Origin: Aquabacter cavernae
Lineage (GTDB): Bacteria; Pseudomonadota; Alphaproteobacteria; Rhizobiales; Xanthobacteraceae
Direction: 5' to 3'
NCBI RefSeq assembly: GCF_003993795.1
Contig: NZ_RWKV01000003.1
Location: forward strand, 186,001-250,000
DNA length: 64,000 nt
Both the position numbers and the translations under genes were made by a program. Below the pieces are notes generated by a model. The model made no database searches. It was not told where the DNA came from and worked only from the letters and a program-made list of their open reading frames with translations. This document shows positions 6,577 to 59,478 of this stretch, piece after piece; the stretch's first letter is position 1, and every line of letters starts with the position of its first letter.

Positions 6577-9068
6577 CCGTCGGGTTCACTCCCGCGGAAG
6601 GGGGGGCAGCTTCGGCCTGGCGGCGTGTAATGCGTCGTGGCGGGAACGGGCTTGCCTATGCGATCGCGCTGGGTCTGGCTGTCTATGCTGGGACCTTGCC
6701 CGCGCACGCTCAGTCGCCCGTGGGCGGCATGGCGAACACTTTTTCTGCACCGCAAACGGACGGTAACAAGAAGATGCTCGTCACGGCTGACGAGCTTATC
6801 TACGACTATGAGAAGAACACGGTCGGAGCCTCGGGCAACGTCCAGCTGTATTATGACGGCGCGAGCCTGGAAGCTCAGCGCGTCACCTTCGACCGCAATC
6901 GCAACGTGGTCATCGCGGAGGGCAATGTTCGCCTGAAGCAGAAGGACGGCAATCTCATCCGCGCCGAAAACCTCGAACTCAGCGAGGATTTCAAGAACGG
7001 CTTTATCCAGTCGATGCGGGTGGACACGGTCGATAAGACCCATTTCGCCGCGACCCGGGCCGACCGGACCGAAGGCAATGTCACGGTCTTCCAGAACGGC
7101 GTCTATACCGCCTGCGAGCCGTGCAAGAACGCGCCCGAGCGCCCGCCGCTATGGCAGGTGAAGGCCGCGCGCATCATCCACAACCAGAACGAGCAGATGA
7201 TCTACTACAAGGACGCGACCTTGGAGTTTTTCGGTCTGCCCATGGCCTATTTCCCGTACTTCTCCAGCCCCGATCCGACGGTGAAGCGCAAGACGGGCTT
7301 CCTGAGCCCGGTCTTCGCCAATGCCAGCAATCTCGGCTTCGGCGTGGGGATTCCCTTCTTCTGGAACATCGCGCCCGATCGCGACATGACCCTGACCCCG
7401 GTCTATTACAGCGAGCAGGGCCTGCTGATGCAGGGCGAGTGGCGCCAGCAGTTGATGAACGGCGCCTATGACATTCGCGCCGCCGGCATCATGCAGCAGG
7501 ACAAGGACGCCTTCGCGGGCCTTCCCGGCTATCGCGACAATCGCGGCATCATCCAGAGCCGGGGTGAGTTCGCCATTACCGACCAATGGAAGTGGGGCTG
7601 GGACGGCACGCTCGCCTCCGACCGCACCTTCCTGAACGACTATCACCTGGGCGGCTATGTCGACGCGCTCGGCCTCGTCAATTCCACGCCCACCGAGATC
7701 ATTTCCCAGCTCTATGTGACCGGGCAGGGCGATCGCTCCTTCTTCGACGCCCGCGCCCTCTATTTCCTCGGTCTGGCCGTGACGGACAACCAGGACATGA
7801 TCCCGGTGGTGGGGACGTTCAACTATAATTATGTGTTCGGAAAACCCGTTTTCGGCGGTGAAGCGGGCGTGCGGGTGAACTTCAACGCTGTTTCACGCAA
7901 CGAGGCCGACTTTGTCGGCATGTCGGCGGCCACGTCCAATGCGGGTGGCGGCACCGGAGTTCCTGCCGGTTCCTGTGCCCTCACCAATCCAAACCCCACC
8001 CAGTGCCTGCTGCGCGGCGCGCCGGGCGAATATCAGCGTCTCAGCGCCGAGCTGTACTGGAAGACGTCCGTCACTGACCAGATCGGCCAGATTTGGACCC
8101 CCTTCGTCAGCGCGCGGGTGGATGTTGCGCACGCCAATATCAGCGCGCTGCCGTCCAGTTATACGAGCGGTGTCACCCTTCCGGGCCAGAACCCGCTTCA
8201 GTCAGGTGATGAAAACCTGATCCGCGCCATGCCTGCGGTTGGTCTCGATTATCGCTATCCCTTCATCTCGGTGCAGAACTGGGGCACGCAGACCATCGAG
8301 CCGCGCGCCCAACTGGTCATCCGCCCGAGCGAGACGGGTATCGGCAAGCTGCCGAACGAGGATGCCCAAAGCCTTGTGTTCGACGACAGCAACCTGTTCG
8401 AGATCAACAAATATTCCGGCTGGGACCGGGTTGAGGGCGGTGGCCGTCTGAATGTGGGCGTCAGCTATACGGCGGCGCTCAACAATGCGGGCCTGATCAC
8501 CGCTCTGGTGGGGCAGTCCTATCACCTGTTCGGTATCAATTCCTTCGCTGAAGGCGACATGGCCAATACCGGACTGGAATCGGGCCTCGACACCAATGTG
8601 TCTGATTATGTGGCTCGTTTCTCCTATTCGCCGACAAATAATTTGGAATTCATCTCGCGCTTCCGCTTCGATCAGGAGAACTATTCGCTCCAAAGGTTCG
8701 AGTTGGAAGGCCGGACCTCGTTTGACAAGATTAGCCTCTCCGCCGTCTATGGCCGGTATGCGCCGCAGCCTCTGTTGGGCTATTATGAGGAGCGCGAGGG
8801 CATCTATACTAGCGGATCCTACCGCCTCACCAACGAATGGTCGGTGGCGGGTGGTATTCGTTATAATATCGCTCAGTCTGGAATTGATATGACTTCGGTG
8901 GGTGTGACCTATTCGGACGACTGCTTCACTCTGGCGGTGAGCTACATTTCCCAATATTCACTCAGCACCTATGACTCCGATCCGAGCCAGCAGATCATGG
9001 TTACGATCGGTCTGCGTACTCTTGGTCAGTCCAGGATCTCCAGCGCCGTAGGGAGCAGCAACAATTGA
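6573..9068 (+). CDS. lptD: LPS-assembly outer membrane protein LptD
   Basis: LptD inserts lipopolysaccharide into the outer leaflet of the outer membrane. The 831-residue protein has a signal peptide (ending near AHAQS), an OstA/LptA-like jellyroll domain at roughly residues 65-190 (VTADELIYDYEKNTVGASGN and following strands), and a long beta-barrel. The segment GLPMAYFPYFSSPDPTVKRK is a hallmark of the LptD barrel entry. Cysteines in ACEPCK and in DDCFT could form the plug-barrel disulfide seen in the family. Base composition is visibly less GC-rich than neighbours toward the 3' end. The start overlaps the lptG stop. Confidence 0.95.
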   Translation: MTVGFTPAEGGAASAWRRVMRRGGNGLAYAIALGLAVYAGTLPAHAQSPVGGMANTFSAPQTDGNKKMLVTADELIYDYEKNTVGASGNVQLYYDGASLEAQRVTFDRNRNVVIAEGNVRLKQKDGNLIRAENLELSEDFKNGFIQSMRVDTVDKTHFAATRADRTEGNVTVFQNGVYTACEPCKNAPERPPLWQVKAARIIHNQNEQMIYYKDATLEFFGLPMAYFPYFSSPDPTVKRKTGFLSPVFANASNLGFGVGIPFFWNIAPDRDMTLTPVYYSEQGLLMQGEWRQQLMNGAYDIRAAGIMQQDKDAFAGLPGYRDNRGIIQSRGEFAITDQWKWGWDGTLASDRTFLNDYHLGGYVDALGLVNSTPTEIISQLYVTGQGDRSFFDARALYFLGLAVTDNQDMIPVVGTFNYNYVFGKPVFGGEAGVRVNFNAVSRNEADFVGMSAATSNAGGGTGVPAGSCALTNPNPTQCLLRGAPGEYQRLSAELYWKTSVTDQIGQIWTPFVSARVDVAHANISALPSSYTSGVTLPGQNPLQSGDENLIRAMPAVGLDYRYPFISVQNWGTQTIEPRAQLVIRPSETGIGKLPNEDAQSLVFDDSNLFEINKYSGWDRVEGGGRLNVGVSYTAALNNAGLITALVGQSYHLFGINSFAEGDMANTGLESGLDTNVSDYVARFSYSPTNNLEFISRFRFDQENYSLQRFELEGRTSFDKISLSAVYGRYAPQPLLGYYEEREGIYTSGSYRLTNEWSVAGGIRYNIAQSGIDMTSVGVTYSDDCFTLAVSYISQYSLSTYDSDPSQQIMVTIGLRTLGQSRISSAVGSSNN

Positions 9069-9250
9069 TCCTTGCCGCCCCAGGGGCGGTAAGAATTTCC
9101 GCAACGTCATCTTGTGACGGAAGGCGGCGGAAAACGGGCCTGTGGCCGTATTGCCGCCACAGGTGCTGGCAAGATACGGTGCGCCGGCTCCGGGCACCGC
9201 GCCCGGTTCCGGCCTTTTCGCCGCGACACGGTTCCTACCCGGATGATGCC

Positions 9251-45725: not shown

Positions 45726-46850
45726 TCATCGGACAGTGTGCGGCGCGGGCTCCCCCAGCGTCTGCATCAGCCGGTTGGCCCATGCGAAGATGGCAATGGC
45801 CTGCGTGAGGTCGAGGATTTCGATGTCCGGCAGTCCGTGCTCTCGCAGGATCGCAAGGCTGTCCGGTGCCAGCGCCGGAGGCGTCGGCGTGAGGCTCGCC
45901 GCATAGGCCGCAACCGCCGCCTTCCGCCCTTCGAGGGCCGCCGTCGCCCCATGCGCGAAGATGGCGGTGATGGTGGCGTCTTCCTTCGCGAGCTGCGCAT
46001 AGAGGCGGCCATGGGCGGACGCGCAATAGGGGCAGCCATTGAGGCGCGATTCCATGGTGGCGGCCAGTTCACGCTCGGCCCTGGGCAGGCCGCGCGGCGC
46101 ATACATGATGCCGTTCAGCAGCTTCATGCGGTGGCGCAGGATTTCCGGCTCGCGCACCAGCAGCGTGAAGAATTCCGATGTGTCGGCGCCGGGCCATGCC
46201 TCCTTGACCACCGCGCGCTGCGTGTCGCTCGCCGCATCCATGGACACCGGCGGGAGCCATGCGTGCCAGTCCAGTTCATCGAGCGTGAAGGCGGCTGCGA
46301 TGTCCGGCGGAAGCAGCGGAAGCGCGCCGGGCTGGGTGCCGGGGATGCCGCGTCCCGCGAGCAGTTCGAGGCCCGCCAGAAGCCGCGTCTGGTAATTCAC
46401 GAAACCGATGACCTGCGAGACGACCACGATGTCGGAGGGTGAGAGCCCCACTTCGGCAAGAGCCGCGAGATGGGCGCGGCCCGCTTCCATCGGGGACAGG
46501 CTGAGACGATCGGCATGGCGCAGGAGAGCGGTCATCCGCCCGTCCAGGTCCGGCCCCCCTCCGGCCTCGATGGCCGCGACCCAGGTGGGGGCGGCGCCCT
46601 CCGCTTCCAGGGCTTGCCGGTGATAGGCAGCGAGGGCAGGGGCTGCGCTCACGCGCGCGATACGCAGCGCGAGCGCGTGCCGCTCCCCGGCGGAGACACC
46701 CTGGCCGGGCGCGAGGCGGAAGATCACTTCGTGGCAGGACTGGGCATAGTCGCGGGTCACCGGCCGCTCGCGGCGAAGCTGGTCCAGTGGCGATCCGGGC
46801 GCGATCCCGGCAAGGGTGTCGATGAGATCGACCTCAGTCGGGTGCGTCAT
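45726..46850 (-). CDS. tandem CMD/AhpD-fold fusion protein
   Basis: This 374-residue protein joins two carboxymuconolactone-decarboxylase-fold halves. The N-terminal half (about 1-175, ending VSQVIGFVNYQTRLLAGLELL) has no CxxC and resembles the 'CMD domain protein, Avi_7170 family'. The C-terminal half (about 186-374) resembles the 'alkylhydroperoxidase domain protein, Avi_7169 family' and keeps the full AhpD active-site pattern Glu261-x11-Cys273-x2-Cys276-x3-His280 (NGCPYCASAH). These families are usually separate adjacent genes. The start overlaps the upstream flavoprotein stop by four bases. A peroxide- or disulfide-handling role is inferred; family names are from memory. Confidence 0.82.
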   Translation of the reverse strand: MTHPTEVDLIDTLAGIAPGSPLDQLRRERPVTRDYAQSCHEVIFRLAPGQGVSAGERHALALRIARVSAAPALAAYHRQALEAEGAAPTWVAAIEAGGGPDLDGRMTALLRHADRLSLSPMEAGRAHLAALAEVGLSPSDIVVVSQVIGFVNYQTRLLAGLELLAGRGIPGTQPGALPLLPPDIAAAFTLDELDWHAWLPPVSMDAASDTQRAVVKEAWPGADTSEFFTLLVREPEILRHRMKLLNGIMYAPRGLPRAERELAATMESRLNGCPYCASAHGRLYAQLAKEDATITAIFAHGATAALEGRKAAVAAYAASLTPTPPALAPDSLAILREHGLPDIEILDLTQAIAIFAWANRLMQTLGEPAPHTVR

Positions 46851-48058
46851 CCGTTTGCCCCTGTGCTGGGTGTGCCGCCTGCGGTGTCGAAGCGCGACAC
46901 GGCGAAGGCCGAGAGATCGACGGTGCTGCGGCCCGTTATTGCAATCTCGGCGGCCGCCTCGCCGATGGCGGCGGAATGCTTGAAGCCGTGCCCCGAGCAG
47001 GGCGACACGACGAGGATGCGCGGCGCTTCCGGGTGGCGGTCGATGAGGAAGGCGGAATCCGGCGTCACGGTGTAGAGGCAGGTCGCGGAGCGCACCACAT
47101 CGGGGCGGATGCCGCGCAGCCGACCCTTGAGGTTGGCCTCGAACATGGCGCGGGATTCCGCCGCGCTCACCACGCGGTCGAAGTCGTTGGGGTCCACCAG
47201 GGCGTCATATTGCTCGTTGGCGGTCTTCAGCGAAGCCGAGCCGTGCAAAGCCGGGAAGCCGTAGAAGAAGTCGTCCAGGCTCTCGCCGTGCGGCCAGATA
47301 TAAGCGGGGCTGCGCTCCCAGAGCGGCACGGCGTCCGGCTCGATGGCGAACCAGTGGAGCATCTGGCGCTGGGGTTCCAGCAGGCGGGCAAACCGCCCGC
47401 CCAGGAGCGCCCCCGCCCATGCGCCGGCCGAGACGATCACCTCGCCGGCCAGCAGCGTTCCGGCGGATGTCTCGATCCGGACGGCGCCGTGCTCCGGTAC
47501 GATACGCTCCACCACGGTGCCGAGGCGAACCTGCGCGCCCAGGCGCTCCGCCTCGCCGATCTGAGCGCCGATACAGCGCTCGGGAAGCACATAGCCCGCG
47601 CCGGGCTCGAAATAGGCGCTCTCGTCGCCACGCAGGATGAATTGCGGGTGGCGATAGGCGAGTTCTGCGGCGTTCAGCACCTCGTGCGAAATGCCGTAGC
47701 GCTCGGCGGCGCGGATGGTGCGCTGGATGAAGCCGGTGCGCGCGCGGCGCTCCACCTGATCGTCCTCGCGCGAAATGATGAGGCAGCCGGCTTCGACCAG
47801 CAGCGTCTCCCCCGTCGCCGCCTCCAGCTCCCGCCAGATCGCGTGGGCGCGCAGGGCCAGCGGCACATAGGCTTCCCCCTCGCCGATGGCCTGGCGGGTG
47901 ATGCGCGTCTCGCCGTGGCTCGATCCACGCTCATGGGGCGGGGCGAACCGGTCGAGACCGATCGCGCGGGCGCCGCGGCGCGCCAGCTGGTAGAGCGCGG
48001 CGCTGCCCATGGCGCCGAGGCCGACGACGGCGACGTCATAGGTGGGAAGAGGGGACAT
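46847..48058 (-). CDS. MSOX/SolA-type FAD-dependent amine oxidase
   Basis: This 403-residue flavoprotein resembles monomeric sarcosine oxidase and N-methyl-L-tryptophan oxidase. It has the N-terminal Rossmann motif VVGLGAMGSAALYQLARRG, the active-site segment RGSSHGETRITR, CLYTVTPDSAFLIDRHP, and Cys354 in VSPCSGHGFKHS. That cysteine matches the residue forming the covalent 8-alpha-S-cysteinyl FAD bond in this family. Members demethylate or oxidise secondary amino acids and release H2O2. The gene sits between an ABC receptor gene (54-base gap) and an AhpD-type gene, so an imported N-alkyl amino acid is a plausible substrate, with peroxide handled by the neighbour. Confidence 0.87.
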   Translation of the reverse strand: MSPLPTYDVAVVGLGAMGSAALYQLARRGARAIGLDRFAPPHERGSSHGETRITRQAIGEGEAYVPLALRAHAIWRELEAATGETLLVEAGCLIISREDDQVERRARTGFIQRTIRAAERYGISHEVLNAAELAYRHPQFILRGDESAYFEPGAGYVLPERCIGAQIGEAERLGAQVRLGTVVERIVPEHGAVRIETSAGTLLAGEVIVSAGAWAGALLGGRFARLLEPQRQMLHWFAIEPDAVPLWERSPAYIWPHGESLDDFFYGFPALHGSASLKTANEQYDALVDPNDFDRVVSAAESRAMFEANLKGRLRGIRPDVVRSATCLYTVTPDSAFLIDRHPEAPRILVVSPCSGHGFKHSAAIGEAAAEIAITGRSTVDLSAFAVSRFDTAGGTPSTGANG

Positions 48059-48112: not shown

Positions 48113-49249
48113 TCAAAGCAGGGCGAGCTTGCCGCCCTTCACGGTGAGCACATAGCCGCCATAGACGGGCGTGCGCTTCTCCGTGATGGTCAGCTTGCCG
48201 TCGCCGAGGATGGTGGGCATGTCCTTGATGGAGAAGATGCCCTTGCGGATGGCCTCGCGGTCCAGGGTCGCGCCGGCCGCTTTCAGCGCGGTCACCGCCT
48301 CGTAGAACTGCGTGTAGCCGATGGCCGCGAACACGTCCGGCGGCGTGTTGTACTTCTTGGTGTAGGCCTCCACGAAGGCCTTGTTCAGCGCGTTCTCGCC
48401 GCCGAGGAAGTAGTCGGCGACGAAGATCGTGCCCTCTACCGCGGCGCCGCCCACCTTCAGGAACTGCGCGGACGCCATGGAGGGCGTGCCGAGGATGCGG
48501 ACCTTGTCGGAGAGCCCGGCCTGCTTCGCCTGGATGATGATGTTGGCGGACAGTTCCGCCGTAGTGGAGATCACCAGCGTGTCGATATCGAGGCTGGCGA
48601 GCTTGGTGGCGAGGGCGGTGAAATCGCTGTCGCTCCCGACGATGGTCTCTTCCGCCACGGTGGCCACACCAGCGGCCACGAAGGCATCCCGCAGGCCGTT
48701 CTTCTGGGCGATATAGGCGTCATTGTCCCGGTTGAAGACGTAGGCGACCTTCTTGGGCTTCAGGTCCGCCAAGGCGCGCTGCGCCAGGGCCTGCATGATG
48801 GTGACGGGGGTCGCCGTCGCCTTGAAGATCCAGTCGCCCACGGGCGTCACGTCGGCGGAGGCGCCGGAGATGACGGGCGTGCCGTTCTTCTGCGCCACCG
48901 GAAGGGCGGCGAATGCCTCGACGCTGGAGGTGGGGCCGAGGATCAGGGCCGCCTTGTCATATTCGGAGAAGCGGGTGATCAGCGTGGTCGCCTGGTTCTT
49001 GTCGCTGCCGGTGTCCTCGAACAGGACCTTCAGCTTCAAGGGGCCGAGTTCGCCGGAAGCCTGCACCTGCTCCAGGGCGATCTGCATGCCGTTGCGGTTG
49101 GGGACGCCGGCGAACGCGAACTGGCCGGTGAGCGCGGCGGGAACGCCGATCACCACCTCCTGCGCGGCGGCAGGGGTGGCGAGGCCGCCCGCGAGAACGA
49201 GCCCTGCGGCGGCAAGGCGGGGTGAGGAGAAGAGCGCACGAATGGTCAC
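48113..49249 (-). CDS. HAAT-family ABC transporter periplasmic receptor, module 1
   Basis: This 378-residue type I periplasmic binding protein (Peripla_BP_6) has a signal peptide (LVLAGGLATPAAAQE) and the start VVIGVPAALTGQFAFAGVPN typical of branched-chain-amino-acid receptors. It has no lipobox. It is the fifth transporter gene of the operon, 11 bases after the LivF-like ATPase. The ligand is unknown; such receptors also bind amides, urea, aromatic acids and other compounds. Confidence 0.88.
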   Translation of the reverse strand: MTIRALFSSPRLAAAGLVLAGGLATPAAAQEVVIGVPAALTGQFAFAGVPNRNGMQIALEQVQASGELGPLKLKVLFEDTGSDKNQATTLITRFSEYDKAALILGPTSSVEAFAALPVAQKNGTPVISGASADVTPVGDWIFKATATPVTIMQALAQRALADLKPKKVAYVFNRDNDAYIAQKNGLRDAFVAAGVATVAEETIVGSDSDFTALATKLASLDIDTLVISTTAELSANIIIQAKQAGLSDKVRILGTPSMASAQFLKVGGAAVEGTIFVADYFLGGENALNKAFVEAYTKKYNTPPDVFAAIGYTQFYEAVTALKAAGATLDREAIRKGIFSIKDMPTILGDGKLTITEKRTPVYGGYVLTVKGGKLALL

Positions 49250-49260
49250 AATAACCCCCT

Positions 49261-49989
49261 TCAGGATGTGGAGAGATCGGTTTCAGGCAGGTAGTGGCTG
49301 ATGATGCGGGGATCGCTTGCCAGAGCCGCGCTGGGGCCTTCCTGGACGATGCGCCCCTGTTCGAGCACATAGGCGAAGTCGGTGGACGCGAGCGCGCGCC
49401 GCGCATTCTGCTCCACCAGCAGGATGGTCTGGCCGCGGGCCTTCAGCGTCGCCAGCGCGTCGAACACCTGCCGCGCCATGATGGGGGAAAGGCCGAGGCT
49501 GGGCTCATCCAGCATCAGGAGGCGCGGGCGCCCCATGAGGGCGCGGCCGATGGCCAGCATCTGCTGCTGGCCGCCGGACAGCGAACCGCCTTCCTGTCGC
49601 CGGCGTTCGGCGAGAATGGGGAACAGGCTGAATACCGCGTCGAGGTCGTCCGCAGTCCCGTCTGCGGCCCGCGCGCCGCGTGCCAGGCGGCCCAGCAGCA
49701 GGTTCTCTTCCACCGACAGAGGCCCGAGGATCTGCCGCCCCTCGGGCACCTGGAGCAGGCCGAGCCGCGCCACCTTGTGGGCGGGAAGGCGCGTCACGTC
49801 CGCGCCGTCGAAGCGGACGGTTCCGGCATGGGGGCGCAACACGCCGCTGATGGTGTTGAGGAGCGTGGACTTTCCCGCCCCGTTGGGGCCGACAATGGCC
49901 ACCATGCTGCCCGTCGGCACGCGGAGCGTGACGCCGCGCAGGGCGGTGATGCCATCATAGGCCGTGGCGAGATCCGTGACTTCCAGCAT
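49261..49989 (-). CDS. LivF-type ABC ATPase, module 1
   Basis: This 242-residue ATPase of a branched-chain-amino-acid-type importer has Walker A GPNGAGKSTLLNTI, the signature SLSGGQQQMLAIGRAL and Walker B LLMLDEPSLGLSP. The segment GLLQVPEGRQILGPLSVEENL is diagnostic of LivF. It follows the LivG-like gene by three bases. Confidence 0.93.
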   Translation of the reverse strand: MLEVTDLATAYDGITALRGVTLRVPTGSMVAIVGPNGAGKSTLLNTISGVLRPHAGTVRFDGADVTRLPAHKVARLGLLQVPEGRQILGPLSVEENLLLGRLARGARAADGTADDLDAVFSLFPILAERRRQEGGSLSGGQQQMLAIGRALMGRPRLLMLDEPSLGLSPIMARQVFDALATLKARGQTILLVEQNARRALASTDFAYVLEQGRIVQEGPSAALASDPRIISHYLPETDLSTS

Positions 49990-49992
49990 CGC

Positions 49993-50754
49993 TTACGCCC
50001 CGAGATAGGCGGCGACGACAGCGGGGTCGCTGCGCACCTGGGCGGGTGGGCCGGAGGCGATGATGCGCCCGGAATCGAGCACGTTGATGCGTCCGCACAG
50101 CGACATCACGAACCGCATATTGTGCTCGATGAGCAGGATGCCGATGCCTTCCCCGGCAATGCCCTGGAAGATGCGGCCGAGGGCGTCGGCCTCCACGTCA
50201 TTCATGCCCGCCACCGGCTCGTCGAGCAGGATGAGATTGGGGCGCAGCGCCAAGGTGCGCATCATTTCCACGCGCCTCTGGTGGCCGTAGGACAGAGCGC
50301 CCGCCGGCACATGGGCGAAGCCCGCCATGTCGAACCGCTCAAGGATCGCGAACGCCTGCTCCCGCGTGGCGCGCACTTCCGCCAGGGCGGCCGGAAGGGC
50401 CAGGAGGCGCGCGAGGAGCGGGCTTTTCTGCTGGGCGTGGAAGCCGATGGCGACGTTGTCGAGAACGCTCTCGTCCTTCAGCAGGCGCACGGTCTGGAAG
50501 GTGCGGGCGATGCCCGCCCGGGCGATCTCCGGCGCCTCGGCGGTGGAGATGTCCGCTGCCCCCAGCAGGATGCGGCCCGAGGTGAGGCGCAGCAGCCCGG
50601 CGATGAGATTGACCAGCGTGGACTTGCCCGCGCCGTTGGGCCCGATCAGGCCGACGATTTCCCCCGGTGCCACCGAGAACGAGACGTTTTCCACGGCGAG
50701 AACCCCGCCGAAACGGCGCGAGACGCCCTCCAGGCTCAGTGTGCTGGCGGTCAT
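49993..50754 (-). CDS. LivG-type ABC ATPase, module 1
   Basis: This 253-residue ATPase has Walker A GPNGAGKSTLVNLI, the signature ALSYGHQRRVEMMRTLAL (SYGHQ instead of the canonical SGGQ, a variant seen in LivG proteins), and Walker B LILLDEPVAGMN, with IARTFQTVRLLKDESVLDNV typical of LivG. The ATG at 50754 overlaps the LivM stop by four bases. Confidence 0.92.
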   Translation of the reverse strand: MTASTLSLEGVSRRFGGVLAVENVSFSVAPGEIVGLIGPNGAGKSTLVNLIAGLLRLTSGRILLGAADISTAEAPEIARAGIARTFQTVRLLKDESVLDNVAIGFHAQQKSPLLARLLALPAALAEVRATREQAFAILERFDMAGFAHVPAGALSYGHQRRVEMMRTLALRPNLILLDEPVAGMNDVEADALGRIFQGIAGEGIGILLIEHNMRFVMSLCGRINVLDSGRIIASGPPAQVRSDPAVVAAYLGA

Positions 50755-51614
50755 GGCGCGGCCTGCGAGACGGCGTGCCGGCGCTGGCGCAGATGCAGGC
50801 GGATGGTGTCCACGATGCCGTGGGGCCAATAGATGATGACCAGCACCATGAGCACCCCGTTGACCAGCAGCCGGTAGTCCGCGAGCGGCCGGGCGATCTC
50901 CGGCAGAAGGGTGAGGACTGCCGCCCCCACCACCGGCCCCACCGGGGAGACGCGGCCGCCGAGCACCACGAAGGTGAGCACGGCGATGAGCAGGGGAAAG
51001 CCGAAATCCTCCGGCACCAGGCTGTAGTTGCGCAGCGCCATGAGCCCGCCCCCGAGCCCGCCCAGGGCACCGCTCAGGGCAAAGGCGAGGCGGTGATAAT
51101 CGACCACCCGGATGCCCAGCGAGACCGCCACCGTCTCCTCCTGCCGGATGGCGTCGAATGTGCTGCCGATGCCCGCGCGGGACAGGGCGAGCATGGCGTA
51201 GAAGATGACGCCGAAGACGAGGATCAGCTCCCAGCCTCCGATAAGGCGCGGCAGGCCGTTCATGCCCATGGCGCCGCCGGTGACGGGTTCCAGATAGAGC
51301 GCGAGCGACAGCACGATCTGCACGAAGGCGAGCGTCGCGATGGCCTGGTAGACACCGCGCAGGCGGCTCAGCGGCACCGACAGGACGAGGCCGGCGACGG
51401 CGCCGATGAGCCCCGCGCCCACCAGCGCCAGGGGCATGGGCACGCCGTGGCGGGCGGCAAGGATGGCCGCGCCATAGGCGCCCAGGGACGCGAAGCCGGC
51501 CGTGGCGAGCGAGAACACGCCCGCGCGCAGCACCACATATTGGCTGAAGGCGAGGCAGGCATTCACCAGCACCAGCTCGCCGAGGGGTTGGAGGGAAGAG
51601 ACGAAGCCGATCAT
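50751..51614 (-). CDS. LivM-type ABC permease, module 1
   Basis: This 287-residue membrane permease has about nine hydrophobic segments. FSLATAGFASLGAYGAAILAA and LGIRVVDYHRLAFALSGALGG are typical of LivM. The ATG at 51614 overlaps the LivH stop, continuing the chain of translational couplings in this operon. Confidence 0.9.
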   Translation of the reverse strand: MIGFVSSLQPLGELVLVNACLAFSQYVVLRAGVFSLATAGFASLGAYGAAILAARHGVPMPLALVGAGLIGAVAGLVLSVPLSRLRGVYQAIATLAFVQIVLSLALYLEPVTGGAMGMNGLPRLIGGWELILVFGVIFYAMLALSRAGIGSTFDAIRQEETVAVSLGIRVVDYHRLAFALSGALGGLGGGLMALRNYSLVPEDFGFPLLIAVLTFVVLGGRVSPVGPVVGAAVLTLLPEIARPLADYRLLVNGVLMVLVIIYWPHGIVDTIRLHLRQRRHAVSQAAP

Positions 51615-52510
51615 TGCCGCACCACCCGCACCTGCCGGTGCAGCGCGCCGAACAGCCCGCTGGGCCGCACCAGGAGGATGAGGAACATCATGCCGAACAG
51701 GATGGCGTCCGAGAGGGCGGACGAGAGGAAGGCGATGCTCAGCGTCTGCACCATTCCGAAGATGAGGCCGCCCGCGAGCGCCCCGGTGATGGAGCCGAGA
51801 CCACCCAGGATGATCACCACGAAGCCGCGCAGGAGGTAGGGCTCTCCCATTAGGAAGTGCACGGAATTGAAGGCGATGCCGATGATCACGCCCGCGGCGC
51901 CCGCCAATGCCCCGGAGATGAAGAAGGTGAGGCCGTGGATATTGGAGACGCTGATGCCCAGCAGCGCCGCCGTCCGCTCCGAGATGGCGACGGCCCGGAT
52001 CTGCCGGCCGAAGCTGGTGGCGAACAGGATCCCCAGCAGCAGGGCCACCAGCACCACCACGCTCGCCACGATGACGATCTGCTGCAGCGAGATGCGCAGG
52101 CCCAGCACGTTGTAGAACACGATGGGGAAGGTGCCGAAGGGAAAGCGATACACCTGGGTCTGGGAGGCGATCTGGGCGAGACTCATGAGAATCTGCGCCA
52201 CGCCGATGCTGGAGATGATGGCGGCGAATTCCGGCGAGCCCCGCGCCCGCAGCGGGCGGAAGGCCACGAGGTCCACCAGGACGCTGATGAGACCGGCGGC
52301 CAGCATCGCCGCGATGAAGGCCACGTAGAGCGGAAGGCCCAGTGAGGTCACGGTGAACAGGCCGACGAACGCCCCCCACATGAACACGGCACCGTGGGCG
52401 AGATTGAGGACGTGGAGCACCCCGAAGATGAGCGTGAAGCCCAAGGCGAAAAGCGCGTAGGTGCCGCCCACGACGAAGCCGTTCAGGATCTGCTGGAAGA
52501 CGAGGGTCAT
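51611..52510 (-). CDS. LivH-type ABC permease, module 1; first gene of the operon
   Basis: This 299-residue permease has the LivH hallmark near its N-terminus (FQQILNGFVVGGTYALFALG, then FTLIFGVLHVLNLAHGAVFM) and RAVAISERTAALLGISVSNI. It is the first gene of a seven-gene leftward operon (livH-M-G-F, receptor, amine oxidase, CMD fusion), read from the AT-rich gap at 52511-52690. Confidence 0.93.
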   Translation of the reverse strand: MTLVFQQILNGFVVGGTYALFALGFTLIFGVLHVLNLAHGAVFMWGAFVGLFTVTSLGLPLYVAFIAAMLAAGLISVLVDLVAFRPLRARGSPEFAAIISSIGVAQILMSLAQIASQTQVYRFPFGTFPIVFYNVLGLRISLQQIVIVASVVVLVALLLGILFATSFGRQIRAVAISERTAALLGISVSNIHGLTFFISGALAGAAGVIIGIAFNSVHFLMGEPYLLRGFVVIILGGLGSITGALAGGLIFGMVQTLSIAFLSSALSDAILFGMMFLILLVRPSGLFGALHRQVRVVRQ

Positions 52511-52690
52511 GGCGGGGAAGGGGTGCGAGGATCTGATTGTACGTTGATAATATGTTATTTTCAGTTATACACACGTGATAATATTTCGTCTATCGGATTG
52601 ATTGAAGAATATGAGATTTTCCGGCTCTTATCCGCCGTGCCGAAGCCCCCATCCCGCCTGACATTTCCAAGCCTGATCCAAAGGTCCCGA
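52511..52690. promoter_or_regulatory. AT-rich divergent control region, module 1
   Basis: This 180-base gap between the divergent LivH and flavin monooxygenase genes is much more AT-rich than the coding DNA. TGATAATAT occurs twice in direct orientation (52545-52553 and 52576-52584), 31 bases apart, about three helical turns. The second copy partly overlaps a CACGTG palindrome (52572-52577). ATTGATTG at 52597-52604 recurs in the module 2 control region. Promoters for both directions must lie here; no regulator gene adjoins. Confidence 0.5.
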
Positions 52691-54151
52691 ATGACGGTCC
52701 ACAGCACCCGTGAAACGCCGCAGCCGGACGCGGAAGCCGCCCTTGACGCTTTGGTTGCCGAAGCCACGAAGGCGGTCGTCTATCTGGGCGAGGCCGGTCC
52801 CGGCTGGGTGCCGGAGCGGCCCGAGTTCGAGTCCGACGTGGCGATCGTCGGCGGCGGGCAGAGCGGGGTCGCGGTCGCCGTCGCCCTGCGCCGTGCGGGC
52901 GTGACCCGCACCACCGTTCTGGATGCCGCGCCGGCCCAGCAGGAGGGTGTGTGGCGCGGCATCGCGCGGATGCAGACGCTGCGGTCCACCAAGGCCCTCC
53001 CCGGGCCGGAGGGCGGCATTGCCGCCTTGAGCTTCCGGGCCTGGTATGAGGCGAAGTTCGGCGTACCGGCCTATGAGGCCCTCGTGCGGTGCGACCGCCT
53101 GGATTGGGCGGATTATGTGGACTGGTACCGACAGGCCGTCAGTGTGCCGGTGCGCAGCGAGGTCCGGTTGCAGCGGATCGAGCCGCTCGCCGAGGGCTTT
53201 CGTCTCCATTTGGTGCGGGAAGGTCTTCAGGTGACCGAGACGACCCGAAAGGTCGTGCTCGCAACGGGCATGGTCGGCGGGGGCGTCCCCTTCACGCCGC
53301 CCGCCATTTCCGCATTGTCGCCGGGCCGATGGGCGCATACCGAGGGTGTCATCGATTTCGAGGCGCTGCGTGGCAGGCGCGTCGGCGTGCTCGGGGCGGC
53401 ATCCTCGGCGTTCGATGCGGCAGCGACCGCGCTGGAGAATGGGGCGGCGGATGCGCACCTGTTCAGCCGCCACAACGACCTTGTGCGCATCACCACCATC
53501 AAGGGCATGGCCTATGCCGGCGTGCTCGACCATTTTCACGAGATGGCGGACGCCGACCGCTGGCATCTCATGCACTATTACATGCAGCGCTCCGCGGGCC
53601 CCATCGCGGACACCGTGCGGCGCGCGACCCGGCTGCCGGATTTCCATCTTCATCTCGGCGAAGACTGGCAGTCCGTGCGGGAGACCGGGGAAGGTGTCGT
53701 GGTGGAAACCGCCGCCGGCCGATTCGTCTTCGATTTCGTCATCGCCGGAACGGGCTATGCGGTGAATCTGGCGGCGCGGCCGGAGCTTGCGGATTTCGCG
53801 GCCCGCATCGCCCTGTGGAGCGACCGCTATCCCGCGCCGGCGGACGCGCAGAACGCCAACCTCGCCCGGCACCCTTATCTCGGCGCAGGTTTCGAGTTCC
53901 TGGAAAGACAGCCGGGAGCCGCACCCTTCCTGCGCGACATCCACTGCTTCAATGCCGCCGCCGCCATGAGCCACGGCCGCGCGGTGGGCGAGATCGCCAG
54001 CCTGAAGCATGGCATTCCCCGTCTTGTCGCCGCCATCGGCCGAGACCTGTTCCTGGCGGACAGGGACAGGCACCTCGAACGTCTCACGTCGTTCGCCGTC
54101 GCGGATCTGACGGGCGAGGAATATGCCGCGCCGGCCCCGGTCGAGGGATGA
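52691..54151 (+). CDS. FMO/BVMO-like FAD-NAD(P)-dependent monooxygenase
   Basis: This 486-residue flavoprotein has an N-terminal extension of about 48 residues before the FAD-binding loop VAIVGGGQSGVAVAVALRRAG (Gly54-Gly59). A second Rossmann region follows at 231-242 (VGVLGAASSAFDAA), in which the NADPH glycine motif is degenerate (GAASSA), as in a distinct flavin-monooxygenase-like subfamily. The ATG motif preceding the second domain is ATGMVGGG. No membrane segment or signal peptide is visible. It is divergent from the module 1 transporter and probably oxygenates the imported compound or a downstream product. The ribosome-binding site is weak (AAAGG). Confidence 0.78.
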   Translation: MTVHSTRETPQPDAEAALDALVAEATKAVVYLGEAGPGWVPERPEFESDVAIVGGGQSGVAVAVALRRAGVTRTTVLDAAPAQQEGVWRGIARMQTLRSTKALPGPEGGIAALSFRAWYEAKFGVPAYEALVRCDRLDWADYVDWYRQAVSVPVRSEVRLQRIEPLAEGFRLHLVREGLQVTETTRKVVLATGMVGGGVPFTPPAISALSPGRWAHTEGVIDFEALRGRRVGVLGAASSAFDAAATALENGAADAHLFSRHNDLVRITTIKGMAYAGVLDHFHEMADADRWHLMHYYMQRSAGPIADTVRRATRLPDFHLHLGEDWQSVRETGEGVVVETAAGRFVFDFVIAGTGYAVNLAARPELADFAARIALWSDRYPAPADAQNANLARHPYLGAGFEFLERQPGAAPFLRDIHCFNAAAAMSHGRAVGEIASLKHGIPRLVAAIGRDLFLADRDRHLERLTSFAVADLTGEEYAAPAPVEG

Positions 54152-54175: not shown

Positions 54176-54733
54176 TTATTCCGCCGCGACGGTGCGGTCC
54201 GCGACGGCAGGTTCGGCATGCTCCACCTGCAGGATGTCGTTGAAGCGGTTGAACGCGCCGCACAGCGCCGTGCGCCAGGTGAGTTCCACGATCTGGGCTT
54301 CGGTGAAATGCGCCTTCAGGCGGGCGAAGATCTCGTCCCGCGTGCGGCTCCAATTGTTGGTGACGGCGATGGCATATTCCACCACCAGCTTGTCCACTGC
54401 ATCCAGCTCGGGATGGTCCTGATAGTCGAGCAGGTGCTGGGCACCCTCCGCCGAGATGCCCTGCACCGAGAGCTTGGGTGTGTGGTGGGCGACGCAATAG
54501 TCGCACTTGTTCAGCAGCGACACGGTGACGATGGCCAGTTCCAGATAGCGCTTGGAGAGCACGGCCTCGTCGGCAAGCTGGGTGAGCTGGCGCCAGCTAT
54601 GCTCGAAGATGGGCAGGCGATGGGCCATGACGCCCGCCTGGTCGGCGAAGTCGCCATAGGTCTCCATCTTGTCCCACAGGGGGTGAAGCGTCTCGGGCAG
54701 GTCGGCGCGGACTTTGCGGGTGATACGCGACAT
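54176..54733 (-). CDS. AhpD-type CMD-family protein, module 2
   Basis: This 185-residue carboxymuconolactone-decarboxylase-family protein has the complete AhpD active-site pattern Glu65-x11-Cys77-x2-Cys80-x3-His84 (KCDYCVAHH). Such proteins act as thiol peroxidases, adaptor disulfide reductases or, in some cases, decarboxylases. It is the last gene of the leftward module 2 operon, 13 bases after the LivM-like gene, and converges with the flavin monooxygenase of module 1. Upstream in-frame codons are low-complexity, so the ATG at 54733 is preferred. Confidence 0.88.
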   Translation of the reverse strand: MSRITRKVRADLPETLHPLWDKMETYGDFADQAGVMAHRLPIFEHSWRQLTQLADEAVLSKRYLELAIVTVSLLNKCDYCVAHHTPKLSVQGISAEGAQHLLDYQDHPELDAVDKLVVEYAIAVTNNWSRTRDEIFARLKAHFTEAQIVELTWRTALCGAFNRFNDILQVEHAEPAVADRTVAAE

Positions 54734-54746
54734 GGGTGGTCTCCTG

Positions 54747-55646
54747 TCAGGATGCGCCGGAGCGGAGGCGATACTCTCGTACGAGGCCGTCCGGCTTGAA
54801 GATGAGAATGGCGACAAGCCCCGCCCCCACGAGGAAGAGGCGCAGCGCGGCGAGTTGAGCGCCGTCGAGGAAGGGGATGACATCCGCCAGGAAGCGGCTA
54901 CCCTCCAGCAGGAGGATCACCGTGAAGCCGGCGATGAGAACCCCCAGATGGCTGCCCCGCCCGCCAATGATCACCGCCATGAAGGCGTAGGCGTTCAGCG
55001 TGGTGCTGAACTGGGTGGGGTCGATATAGCTGTAGTGGAAGGCATGAAGGCTGCCCGCCACGCCCAGCAGGGCGCCGCCGATGGCGAACACCTTCGCCCG
55101 CACGGCCAGCACGTTCTTTCCCAGGGCCTCGGCCACCGTCGCATCGTCCCGTGTCGCCCGCACGAGCCGCCCGAAGGGCGCGCGGGTGATCTTGCGCAGC
55201 AGCAGGAAGACGAGCGCCAGCCAGGCATAGGCGAAGGCCAGGAACACCGCGTCCGACCATTCCGGCGGCACGGAGCCGGCGAAGGGGCGCACGATGCCCG
55301 GCACGCCCAGCGTGCCGCGGGTCAGCCATTCCTCATAGCTGATGAACAGCCGGACGCATTCGGCGAAACCCAGCGTGACGATGGCGAGATAATCCTCGCT
55401 GAGCCGCACCGAGATGAGGCTGACCGCTGCGCTCACCGCGGCCGTGACCACGATGGCGGCGGCCATGGCGGCGAGCGGCGGCACGCCCTTGGTGTCGAGA
55501 AGGGCGCAGACATAGGCGCCCAGCATGTAGAAGCCGAACAGGCCGAAATTCACCAGCCCGCCCAGGCCCCATTGCAGGTTCAAGGCAAGCCCGGCGATGG
55601 TGGCGATGGCGACCAGCACCAGGGTTGCGGCCACATAGGAAATCAT
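54747..55646 (-). CDS. LivM-type ABC permease, module 2
   Basis: This 299-residue permease has the LivM features GLALNLQWGLGGLVNFGLFG near the start and GKNVLAVRAKVFAIGGALLG in the middle. It differs clearly from the module 1 LivM, so this is an independent transporter rather than a recent copy. The start overlaps the LivH stop by four bases. Confidence 0.92.
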   Translation of the reverse strand: MISYVAATLVLVAIATIAGLALNLQWGLGGLVNFGLFGFYMLGAYVCALLDTKGVPPLAAMAAAIVVTAAVSAAVSLISVRLSEDYLAIVTLGFAECVRLFISYEEWLTRGTLGVPGIVRPFAGSVPPEWSDAVFLAFAYAWLALVFLLLRKITRAPFGRLVRATRDDATVAEALGKNVLAVRAKVFAIGGALLGVAGSLHAFHYSYIDPTQFSTTLNAYAFMAVIIGGRGSHLGVLIAGFTVILLLEGSRFLADVIPFLDGAQLAALRLFLVGAGLVAILIFKPDGLVREYRLRSGAS

Positions 55647-56503
55647 TTCGCCGTTCCTTGTGCCGCGAACAGGCCGGTGGGGCGCACCAGCAGGAGCAGG
55701 GCCATCACCGCGAAAGCCACCATGGTGCGGTAATGAGGGGCGAGGACCAGCGTCGCCAATTCCTCGGTGATGCCCAGCACCACCGCGCCCGCCACCGCCG
55801 CCATGGGATTGCCGATGCCGCCGAGGATGGCGGCGGTGAAGACGGGCAGGATGTAGTTCCACCCCATCTGCGGATCCACGTTGCCGTCGAGCCCCACCAG
55901 CACCCCCGCGAGCGTCGCCAGCACCGAGGAGATGACCCATACGGCGCACACCACCTGACGGCGTGGGATGCCCCGCACGGCGGCGAGGTCCGCATTGTCA
56001 GCCACCGCCCGCATGGCCCGGCCGAGCCGGGTGAAGCGGAACACGATCCACACGACGGCGAGCGCCAGAAGGACAGTGGCGATGGTGGTGATCTGTTCCT
56101 GGTTGATGCGCAGGCCATGGAGCCGCAGCGGGCGCGCCACCTCCACCGCGAAGCCGCGCGTGGAGGAGCCGGCGATAAAGCGCACGGCATTTTCCAGCGC
56201 GATGCCCACGCCGATGGAGGCCACCAGAAGCGTCACGCCCCCGCGCCCCTTCAGCGGCTCATAGACCAGCCGGTCGATGGCCAGCGCCAGCCCGGCACCG
56301 ACCGCGCCGCCCGCCAGAGCCGCCAGCGGCAGGGGCCAGCCGAGGCCCGCATTGAAGGCGTAGACCAGATAGGCGCCCACCGTCAGCATGGAGCCGATGG
56401 CGTAATTGGCGAAGCGCAGCACGCTGAACACCAGCGCCAGCGACAGGGCCGGCAGGGCGATGAGCAGGCCGGTGACGAGGCCGTTGAAGATGAGCTGTCC
56501 CAT
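55643..56503 (-). CDS. LivH-type ABC permease, module 2
   Basis: This 286-residue permease has the LivH pattern MGQLIFNGLVTGLLIALPAL, with SVLRFANYAIGSMLTVGAY and MRAVADNADLAAVRGIP. The start codon shares one base with the LivF stop. It has about eight transmembrane segments. Confidence 0.92.
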   Translation of the reverse strand: MGQLIFNGLVTGLLIALPALSLALVFSVLRFANYAIGSMLTVGAYLVYAFNAGLGWPLPLAALAGGAVGAGLALAIDRLVYEPLKGRGGVTLLVASIGVGIALENAVRFIAGSSTRGFAVEVARPLRLHGLRINQEQITTIATVLLALAVVWIVFRFTRLGRAMRAVADNADLAAVRGIPRRQVVCAVWVISSVLATLAGVLVGLDGNVDPQMGWNYILPVFTAAILGGIGNPMAAVAGAVVLGITEELATLVLAPHYRTMVAFAVMALLLLVRPTGLFAAQGTAK

Positions 56504-57222
56504 CAGTGCCCGCCCAGATAGAGGCTTTGCATGAGGCCGTCCGAGAGGAGGTCCGTGGCGGGCGCCTCCGCCTTCACCTGCCCCGCGACCAGAACCAGGC
56601 CGCGCGCGGCGACCGCCAGCCCGAGGCGGGTATTCTGCTCGATCATGAGGAGCGTGACCCCCGTCGACGCGATCCGGGCGATGGCGGCGAAGAGCAGTTC
56701 GGCATTCTTCGGCGACAGGCCGGCGGACGGCTCGTCCAGCGCCAGAACCGAGGGCTCGGGCATGAGGGCGGCGGCCATGGCCACCATCTGCCGCTGCCCG
56801 CCGGAGAGATGCCCGGCAGCCACCTTCAGCTTCGGGCGGATCTCGGGGAACAGCGCCAGCACTGCCTCCAGGCGGCTTGCGAAGGTCGCGCCGGAGCGGG
56901 CGGGGATGAACTCGAAGGCCACTTTCAGATTCTCGGAGACGCTCAGGGAGCGGAACACGTTGGCCTCCTGGGGCACGTGGCCGAGGCCGCGCCGCGCGCG
57001 CCCCGGCGCATCCAGGCGGGTGACGTCCTCGCCCTCCAGCAGCACCCGGCCTTTCTGGGGCTGAACAAGGCCCACCACCGTCTTCATGAGGGTCGATTTG
57101 CCCGAGCCGTTGGGGCCGACCACGGTGAGGCTGCCTCGGGCGGGAACGGAAAGGCTCACCCCGTGCAGGACCGGCCGTCCGCGATACCCGGCGACCACAT
57201 TCTCAAGCACCAGCCCGCTCAC
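56503..57222 (-). CDS. LivF-type ABC ATPase, module 2
   Basis: This 239-residue ATPase has Walker A GPNGSGKSTLMKTV, the signature HLSGGQRQMVAMAAALM and Walker B VLALDEPSAGLSP. GLGHVPQEANVFRSLSVSENL is the LivF-type D-loop region. The start overlaps the LivG stop by four bases. Confidence 0.93.
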   Translation of the reverse strand: MSGLVLENVVAGYRGRPVLHGVSLSVPARGSLTVVGPNGSGKSTLMKTVVGLVQPQKGRVLLEGEDVTRLDAPGRARRGLGHVPQEANVFRSLSVSENLKVAFEFIPARSGATFASRLEAVLALFPEIRPKLKVAAGHLSGGQRQMVAMAAALMPEPSVLALDEPSAGLSPKNAELLFAAIARIASTGVTLLMIEQNTRLGLAVAARGLVLVAGQVKAEAPATDLLSDGLMQSLYLGGH

Positions 57223-57995
57223 GCGACCGCTCCCAGATAGGCTTCCGTCACGAGGGAATTGGCGGAAATCTCCGCGAAGCTGCCACTGGTGAGCACGCGC
57301 CCTTCCGCCAGCACATGGATGGGGTCACAGAGCGCGGCGATGAGATCCATATTGTGCTCCACGATGCCGAAGCTCATGCCTTCGTCCCGAAGGGTGCGGA
57401 TGAAGTCGCCGATCTCGCCCACGAGGACGGGGTTCACGCCGGCGGCGGGCTCGTCCAGCAGCACGAGGCGCGGTTCGAGCATGAGGGCGCGGCAGAGTTC
57501 CAGGAGCTTCTTCTGGCCGCCGGACAAAGCATCGGCCGGTGCATCGGCCAGCCGCCACAGGTTGACGCGCTGGAGCAGGGCGCGGGCATGCTCCGTCGCC
57601 TCCTCCTCGGCCCGGCGCACCCGCGCCTTCTGGAACAGCGCCGGCAGCACGTTCTCGCCGGGCTGGCGCGGGAAGGCGAGCAGCAGGTTTTCGAGCACGG
57701 TCAGGGCGCCGAGTTCGCGGGAGATCTGGAAGGTACGGGTGAGGCCGAGGCGCGCCCGGTCATGGGCGGGAAGCCGGGTGACATCCCGCCCGTCGAAGGA
57801 CACGGAACCCTTGCCCGGCCGGACCTGCCCGCCCAGCACGTTGAACAAGGTGGACTTGCCGGCCCCGTTGGGGCCGACAATGCCGGTGATGCCGCCCCGG
57901 CGGAAGGTGAGGCTCACCCCGTCGAGGGCGACGAAGTCGCCGAACCTGATGCCGATGTGGCGGGCGTCAAGAAAGGCGTCCGGGCCCACGCTCAT
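57219..57995 (-). CDS. LivG-type ABC ATPase, module 2
   Basis: This 258-residue ATPase has Walker A GPNGAGKSTLFNVL, the signature ALSGGQKKLLELCRALM and Walker B LVLLDEPAAGVNP. LTRTFQISRELGALTVLENLL is typical of LivG. The start overlaps the receptor stop by four bases. Confidence 0.93.
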   Translation of the reverse strand: MSVGPDAFLDARHIGIRFGDFVALDGVSLTFRRGGITGIVGPNGAGKSTLFNVLGGQVRPGKGSVSFDGRDVTRLPAHDRARLGLTRTFQISRELGALTVLENLLLAFPRQPGENVLPALFQKARVRRAEEEATEHARALLQRVNLWRLADAPADALSGGQKKLLELCRALMLEPRLVLLDEPAAGVNPVLVGEIGDFIRTLRDEGMSFGIVEHNMDLIAALCDPIHVLAEGRVLTSGSFAEISANSLVTEAYLGAVA

Positions 57996-59221
57996 TTCGT
58001 GGAGCCGACCAGCTTGCTGACCCCGTCCGTGACGCGGAAGTGGCCGTAATCGAGGTCGATCTGGTCACCGTTGGGCGCGAAGCGGAAGTTGGAGGTGGCG
58101 CCCGCATAGCGGAAGGGCTTGCCTTCGCGGATGAGCTTCAGGCCCTCCACGGGGTCGGAGATGGCCGGGCCGGTGCCGTTCACCAGGGACGGGATCTGCT
58201 TGGTGAAATCGACCGCCTTGTCGCTCTTCGCCTTCTCGATGGCGAGGGCGAGGATGTTGATCTCGTCGAACACATTGGCGCCGAACGTCGCTAGGGTGTC
58301 GGGCTTCTGGCCGGTGAGCTTCAGATAGAGCTGGTAGGTCGTGCTGTTGCCCACGGGCACGGCCTGGACGTGGTTGATGCCCTCGGCCACCTGCTTGCCC
58401 ACGTTCTGCACGAACTTGCCCTGGCTGTCGGCCGCATGGCTGAACGTGTAGAGCTTGCTCTCGAAGCCGGAGCGGTAGACCTCTTTCGCGATGGCGCTGA
58501 ATTCGGGGATATAGCTGGGCACGAACACGGCGTCCGGCTTCTTGTCGAACACCTTGTCCACCTCGGTGCGGTAGGACGGCTGGTTCGGGTTGAAGTAGAC
58601 GACGTCGATGATCTTGCCGCCGCCGGCGGTGAACGCCTCTTCAAACGGCTTCACCGTGCTGAGCGTGAAGGGCGTTTGCAGCACCAGGATGGAGGCGGTC
58701 TTGGCGCCGTCCTTCAGCGCCACATTGGCGAAGGCGCGGCCCCAGTCCTTGCCGTTGGTCTGGAAGCGCCAGACAAGGCCCTTCGTGTCGCCCTGGGTCA
58801 GCTCGTCGGCCGATCCGTTGGGCAGGAGCGCCACGCCCTTTTCCAGGGCGAGCGGGCGCACCGCAAGGCCGACCGCGCTGCTCCAGATGCCGGTGATGGC
58901 GGACACGCCGTTCACGTCGATGAGCTTGCGGGCAGCGGCGACGCCGGCGGTGGGAGCGGTCTCATCGTCCGCCACGAACAACTCCAGCTTGCGTCCCAGC
59001 ACGCCTCCGGCCGCGTTGATGTTCGCGACGGCGGCCTTGGCGGCGTCTTCCTCTTCCTTGCCATAGGGACCGCCCGTGCCGGTCAGCGGGGCGAGAAGGC
59101 CGATCTTGATGGTCTCGTCCGCCGCCAGCGCGCCGGTGGGCGCGAGCATGGGCAGGCCTGCGGCCAGGCTGAGAAGGGACGCCGCGAGGAACGACCGGCG
59201 GGCGAGGGGCGGGAACGGCAT
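57992..59221 (-). CDS. HAAT-family ABC transporter periplasmic receptor, module 2
   Basis: This 409-residue type I periplasmic binding protein has a Tat-like signal (ARRSFLAASLLSLAAGLPML) and the family start IKIGLLAPLTGTGGPYGKEE. It is the first gene of the module 2 operon, whereas in module 1 the receptor is fifth, so the two operons did not arise by simple tandem duplication. The ligand is unknown. Upstream in-frame codons do not look coding, so the ATG at 59221 is used. Confidence 0.9.
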   Translation of the reverse strand: MPFPPLARRSFLAASLLSLAAGLPMLAPTGALAADETIKIGLLAPLTGTGGPYGKEEEDAAKAAVANINAAGGVLGRKLELFVADDETAPTAGVAAARKLIDVNGVSAITGIWSSAVGLAVRPLALEKGVALLPNGSADELTQGDTKGLVWRFQTNGKDWGRAFANVALKDGAKTASILVLQTPFTLSTVKPFEEAFTAGGGKIIDVVYFNPNQPSYRTEVDKVFDKKPDAVFVPSYIPEFSAIAKEVYRSGFESKLYTFSHAADSQGKFVQNVGKQVAEGINHVQAVPVGNSTTYQLYLKLTGQKPDTLATFGANVFDEINILALAIEKAKSDKAVDFTKQIPSLVNGTGPAISDPVEGLKLIREGKPFRYAGATSNFRFAPNGDQIDLDYGHFRVTDGVSKLVGSTK

Positions 59222-59478
59222 GGCTGGCTCCGGATGAGGAAATTCCTGGCGGAACGCGAGGCTCCGCCCAGGCTGATCCCGCGGCGTGCCGGGTATGGCA
59301 TCTGGAGTGGATGCGGCAGCGCTCACGCCATTCAGGATCGCGATGATTGATTATATTAAGTCAATTGACTCAATCAATAATATATTCCACCAAAGTGATG
59401 CATTTTATGAAAAACACCGAAACATTTCGGTGAAATTTGTGCGTGCATCCCCTGGCGGATGCATCTTCAGGATCGCCC
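59222..59478. promoter_or_regulatory. AT-rich divergent control region, module 2
   Basis: This 257-base gap lies between the divergent receptor and monooxygenase genes; its right half is strongly AT-rich. It contains a perfect 12-bp palindrome AGTCAATTGACT (59359-59370), flanked by GATTGATT (59345-59352) and its reverse-type copy CAATCAAT (59371-59378). Nearer the monooxygenase gene is a perfect inverted repeat CACCGAAA-CA-TTTCGGTG (59415-59432). These are probable operators and promoters. Confidence 0.55.

Follow-up and report, generated by a model that had tools for sequence, protein, structure and literature searches.

Fused bacterial AhpD-like dimers in which the N-terminal domain is cysteine-less were described in 2024, with YciW as a two-domain relative (PMC11429811). 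Single-ORF fusions of the two CMD families treated here, TIGR04029 (CMD_Avi_7170) and TIGR04030 (perox_Avi_7169), are annotated in Pantoea, Erwinia, and Azospirillum. A search of plasmid records gave 279 matches, many of which are a single ORF over 97% of the query, and further fused genes were found in sampled genomes of the same phylum. A literature search on the Avi names and the TIGR numbers found no paper. The gene described here lies in a window of 64,000 nucleotides from Aquabacter cavernae (contig NZ_RWKV01000003.1), the whole stretch of DNA that was analyzed. The fusion itself is already known and the window gene is a new example of this arrangement, which is not unusual. In the same-genus genomes examined the fusion was not found, and the viral contigs searched contained no fused relatives and one distant single-domain match.

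The Fused Gene and Its Two Domains

The gene and its parts have the following coordinates in the window:

45726..46850, minus strand, fused two-CMD-domain protein of 374 aa (ORF and profile matches)
46359..46829, minus strand, N-terminal CMD domain, residues 8-164, TIGR04029, without CxxC (profile match)
46296..46358, minus strand, inter-domain linker, residues 165-185 (gap between the profile matches)
45747..46295, minus strand, C-terminal CMD domain, residues 186-368, TIGR01926 / TIGR04030-like (profile matches)
46011..46070, minus strand, active site E261...C273-x2-C276-x3-H280 (invariant in 40 C-terminal halves)

The ORF of 374 aa starts with ATG and contains no internal stops; its position, strand, and length were confirmed exactly. 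GC3 stays even over the whole fused gene, and this uniform coding signal together with the in-frame profile matches rules out a single-gene artefact or a frameshift. The full TIGR04029 profile matches residues 8-164 with 119.1 bits (E = 3e-34), which is above the curated cut-off of 100.75 and makes the protein a member of this family. Positions 3-185 of TIGR04030 match residues 186-368 with 190 bits (E = 4e-56), below the curated cut-off of 233.15; the C-terminal half is homologous to TIGR04030 but outside the equivalog. It is a member of TIGR01926 (peroxidase-related enzyme), with 196.4 bits over residues 197-368 and a cut-off of 81.8. Scores under the TIGR04030 cut-off were also obtained for other members from FAD neighborhoods (185 bits for L058 and 150 bits for L062), and a luciferase-type member reaches 305 bits. 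TIGR04029 and TIGR04030 are both of the kind "hypoth_equivalog_domain", made for matching parts of longer proteins. The Pfam CMD profile (PF02627) matches in the C-terminal half only, at residues 235-317. Homology between the N- and C-terminal halves was found with hhalign (probability 97.9, E = 4e-13). AlphaFold2 models of the 374-aa chain, built with one and three input sequences, have pLDDT values of 42 and 39, respectively, and are too poor to use.

The two CMD families are joined in one polypeptide as predicted, with two separate tandem matches, one of them of the N-terminal half to TIGR04029, instead of a lone CMD match across the protein. The expected assignment of both halves held above cut-off for TIGR04029 and fell short for TIGR04030 (190 vs. 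233 bits).

The AhpD-type CMD site E-x11-C-x2-C-x3-H is present in the C-terminal half only, with E261, C273, C276, and H280 at the positions that had been proposed, and these four residues are unchanged in all 40 aligned C-terminal halves. None of the 40 N-terminal halves, fused and split alike, contains CxxC. In the window protein H58, A70, L73, and H77 align opposite E261, C273, C276, and H280 in a profile alignment, and the sole cysteine of the N-terminal half, C39, is located away from the active-site position; R57, A61, G135, and Q154 are among the conserved positions of this half. The predicted lack of active-site cysteines is therefore a trait of the family, since the split N genes also lack CxxC, and a cysteine loss caused by the fusion is ruled out.

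Fused and Split Forms

In many relatives the two families are encoded by adjacent separate genes, as had been expected, and always in the order N gene then C gene. These split pairs mostly overlap or are located within about 30 nt of each other, while the linkers in fused relatives comprise 12-29 aa. On a tree of 35 pairs, on which the window row is a long branch, the fused state takes four changes, at least three of which are forced. A single fused clade was rejected (p-AU 4e-38). In pairwise tests the joining of window and enteric fusions, of window and Burkholderia-type fusions, and of enteric and Burkholderia-type fusions was rejected in each case, where Burkholderia-type stands for four fused rows (L073, L080, L081, and L085) grouping with Paraburkholderia L028. 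A grouping of the window with Azospirillum was not rejected (p = 0.2). One origin of the fusion is thereby ruled out. Fusion or fission took place at least three times, in a direction that the tree does not distinguish and with the N part always before the C part. This supports the obligate heteromer of the original prediction, as the fused rows do not form one clade, and the repeated fusion suggests that both partners act together as a single enzyme.

The Operon Around the Fused Gene

The fused gene is the end of a liv-type operon consisting of livHMGFK, an amine oxidase gene, and the fusion. The neighboring features are:

46847..48058, minus strand, FAD amine oxidase, N-methyl-L-tryptophan/sarcosine oxidase-like, overlapping the CMD start by 4 nt (NF008425)
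48113..52510, minus strand, branched-chain-type ABC importer livH, livM, livG, livF, and livK, upstream on the same strand, with the binding protein encoded at 48113-49249 (profile matches)
52511..52690, no strand, AT-rich divergent intergenic region separating livH from the FAD gene (the genome has 68% GC)
52691..54151, plus strand, FAD class-B-like monooxygenase of 486 aa, divergent from livH (profile matches)

Within the operon, the amine oxidase is the immediate partner of the fusion. It scores 436 bits against NF008425 (cut-off 257) and matches the monomeric sarcosine oxidase of the PDB with E = 1e-67. Relatives of it were not found beside the other CMD pairs examined, and in two same-genus genomes a relative is located next to a dipeptide ABC transporter without a CMD gene. 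The short AT-rich intergenic region 52511-52690 is likely a regulatory region.

A dipeptide ABC transporter and a luciferase-like enzyme had been named as the usual context of the two families. This is only one of several contexts: no TIGR04027 luciferase-like match over cut-off was found in the genome and the transporter is liv-type, so that the window fusion lies outside the Avi_7169/7170 luciferase cassette.

The window FAD gene is located 5.8 kb from the fusion, and its product is homologous to the FAD enzyme found beside most CMD pairs. On the FAD tree it is placed outside the CMD-linked clade (100/100), among FAD enzymes mostly without a CMD neighbor. The candidate of a straightforward ortholog of the CMD-linked enzyme is weakened by this tree, and the window enzyme, which belongs to another subclade, may not be the partner of the fused protein.

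A second, single-domain CMD protein with CxxC is encoded in the window at 54176-54883 on the minus strand, at the end of a second branched-chain-type ABC operon (54176-59326). The window thus contains two neighboring liv-type operons with a CMD gene at the end of each. This second protein belongs to a rare family, found at E 1e-20 in 4 of 398 genomes. The closest FAD relative that was found (L114 in genome G343, 46%) has a relative of the second CMD gene at a distance of 6.5 kb. As the FAD enzymes of the window and of G343 are both near such relatives, the second CMD gene may be the true partner of the window FAD enzyme.

Neighborhoods in Relatives

A monooxygenase gene was found at 28 of the 30 pair loci examined. 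A FAD class-B-like enzyme is encoded at 22 loci, the window included and one with a distance of about 10 kb, and a TIGR04027 luciferase-like enzyme at six. The remaining two loci, L070 and L079, have a DAO-type oxidase; that of L079 was identified by its similarity to the L070 protein rather than by a separate profile search. One change on the CMD tree separates the FAD and luciferase-like neighbor classes. The types of transporter encoded near the pairs vary and comprise branched-chain, dipeptide, polyamine-like, and polar amino acid systems. M20 amidohydrolases are present in some luciferase-type clusters.

Within 398 genomes TIGR04029 was found in 24 and the FAD enzyme in 23, with both in 15 compared to 1.4 expected (hypergeometric P = 9e-16, kinship ignored). 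In 12 of these 15 genomes the inspected tables place the two genes at most about 10 kb apart.

At L070 a gene for a Cds1-like L-cysteine desulfhydrase (7948-9142) is located 28 nt upstream of the split CMD pair; it reaches 555 bits at a cut-off of 600.

Proposed Function and Alternatives

In the window gene two subunits of the CMD/AhpD fold are fused in frame; elsewhere these are encoded by separate neighboring genes, which are mostly coupled. Most likely the gene encodes a built-in pseudo-heterodimer in an operon for import and oxidation, with a predicted dithiol step, a reading to which we give about an even chance. It is favored by the tandem profile matches, the invariant tetrad, the homologous halves, the N-then-C coupling, and the repeated fusion or fission, as well as by the 22 FAD and six luciferase-like neighbors, the co-occurrence with the FAD enzyme, and the solved relatives, which are AhpD-type proteins. 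The FAD subclade, the unconserved amine oxidase neighbor, and the same-genus genomes without the fusion count against it. We infer the heteromeric structure, the reductive role, and the substrate as follows. The operon would import an amino-acid-like compound through the liv-type ABC transporter, and an O2-using flavin enzyme would oxidize it. The C-terminal half would then carry out the chemistry via its AhpD-type dithiol (E261, C273, C276, and H280), reducing either the oxidized intermediate or peroxide released by the flavin enzyme, and the N-terminal half, with its catalytic positions lost, may complete the fold, the oligomer, or the substrate pocket.

A dithiol redox step beside an O2-using flavin enzyme is the most likely role, of which peroxide removal and sulfenic-acid reduction are two concrete forms. 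It is possible, although doubtful, that the function of the protein is limited to removing H2O2 or organic peroxide released by the neighboring amine oxidase or by an uncoupled monooxygenase, with no action on the pathway substrate. The 4-nt overlap with a sarcosine/N-methyltryptophan-oxidase-like gene, whose class releases H2O2, points to this, as do the AhpD-type tetrad and the reactivity with O2 of all three neighboring flavoenzyme types. However, the amine oxidase is not conserved beside other members, and a cysteine-free partner in every member seems to exceed the needs of a simple peroxidase. Rather improbable is sulfur salvage, in which the flavin monooxygenase would convert an imported S-substituted cysteine derivative into a sulfenic acid or a similar product and the fused protein would reduce the latter, as in the CmoO/CmoJ pathway, where the sulfenic acid product of the flavin enzyme CmoJ must be reduced (PMC10863075). 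Besides this precedent, the M20 amidohydrolases, the CMD pair 28 nt after the Cds1-like gene, and YciW, a distant two-domain relative that has a CysB motif and shows a cysteine phenotype (PMC10821248), are consistent with sulfur salvage. On the other hand, the window operon has no sulfur gene and contains the N-methyl-amine oxidase-like gene instead, the Cds1 link comes from a single locus, and YciW is only 24% identical and lacks the CxxC spacing. For the mechanism, the CmoJ precedent, the M20 clusters, and the Cds1-like neighbor are leads.

It is very unlikely that the protein is a regulator or sensor that binds an amino acid through its cysteine-free half and has a signaling instead of a catalytic function. 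Sestrin, whose second domain binds leucine (PMC11429811), shares the plan of one redox and one cysteine-free AhpD-like domain, but its domain order is reversed, the catalytic tetrad of the CMD proteins is invariant, and their neighbors are catabolic and transport genes.

The preferred reading of a two-subunit dithiol enzyme can tentatively be extended. The CMD pair might be a portable obligate heteromer, fused several times and coupled to flavoenzymes that use O2 and are not related to one another (FAD class-B monooxygenases, FMN luciferase-like enzymes, and amine oxidases), which would act as a general second-step enzyme for oxidized intermediates in small-molecule catabolism. The context pattern makes the role of a catalytic and non-catalytic AhpD-like pair beside two unrelated monooxygenases testable. 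That the fusion recurs is good evidence for one enzyme formed by the uncharacterized TIGR04029 and TIGR04030, and the two are therefore best expressed and assayed together.

Comparison With Known Systems

Among the closest known counterparts is the fused protein of Azospirillum thermophilum (WP_109332038.1, 360 aa, "peroxidase-related enzyme"), which is 46% identical over the full length and also associated with branched-chain-type ABC genes. It differs in having a FAD monooxygenase directly upstream in the operon and no N-methyl amine oxidase. The Erwinia rhapontici protein WP_227536470.1 ("alkylhydroperoxidase domain protein") is likewise a fusion of TIGR04029 and TIGR04030 in the same order with cysteines in the C-terminal half only. 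Fusions of this type are about 38% identical to the window protein and, like it, follow a flavoenzyme gene as the last gene of an ABC-transporter operon, but they are part of the clade with the luciferase-like enzyme (TIGR04027) and a dipeptide ABC transporter, and their C-terminal half is above the TIGR04030 cut-off. The split pair WQO70031.1/WQO70030.1 of Sinorhizobium medicae comprises the same families in the order N then C (37 and 42% identical), whereas it is encoded by two genes and has a different ABC transporter type.

More distant is E. coli YciW (NP_415803.2), which has two CMD-like domains in about 375 aa but, with 24% identity and no CxxC spacing, remains under all NCBIfam cut-offs. 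The AhpD and peroxidase-related structures PDB 6k40, 2oyo, 3c1l, and 2prr are homologous to the C-terminal half and contain E...CxxC...H; unlike the window protein they are single-domain proteins with both roles in one subunit. By their description, the fused AhpD-like proteins of Comamonas aquatica and Corynebacterium ureicelerivorans, published as structural analogues of sestrin, resemble the window protein in having an N-terminal domain without cysteines and a C-terminal domain with two (PMC11429811).
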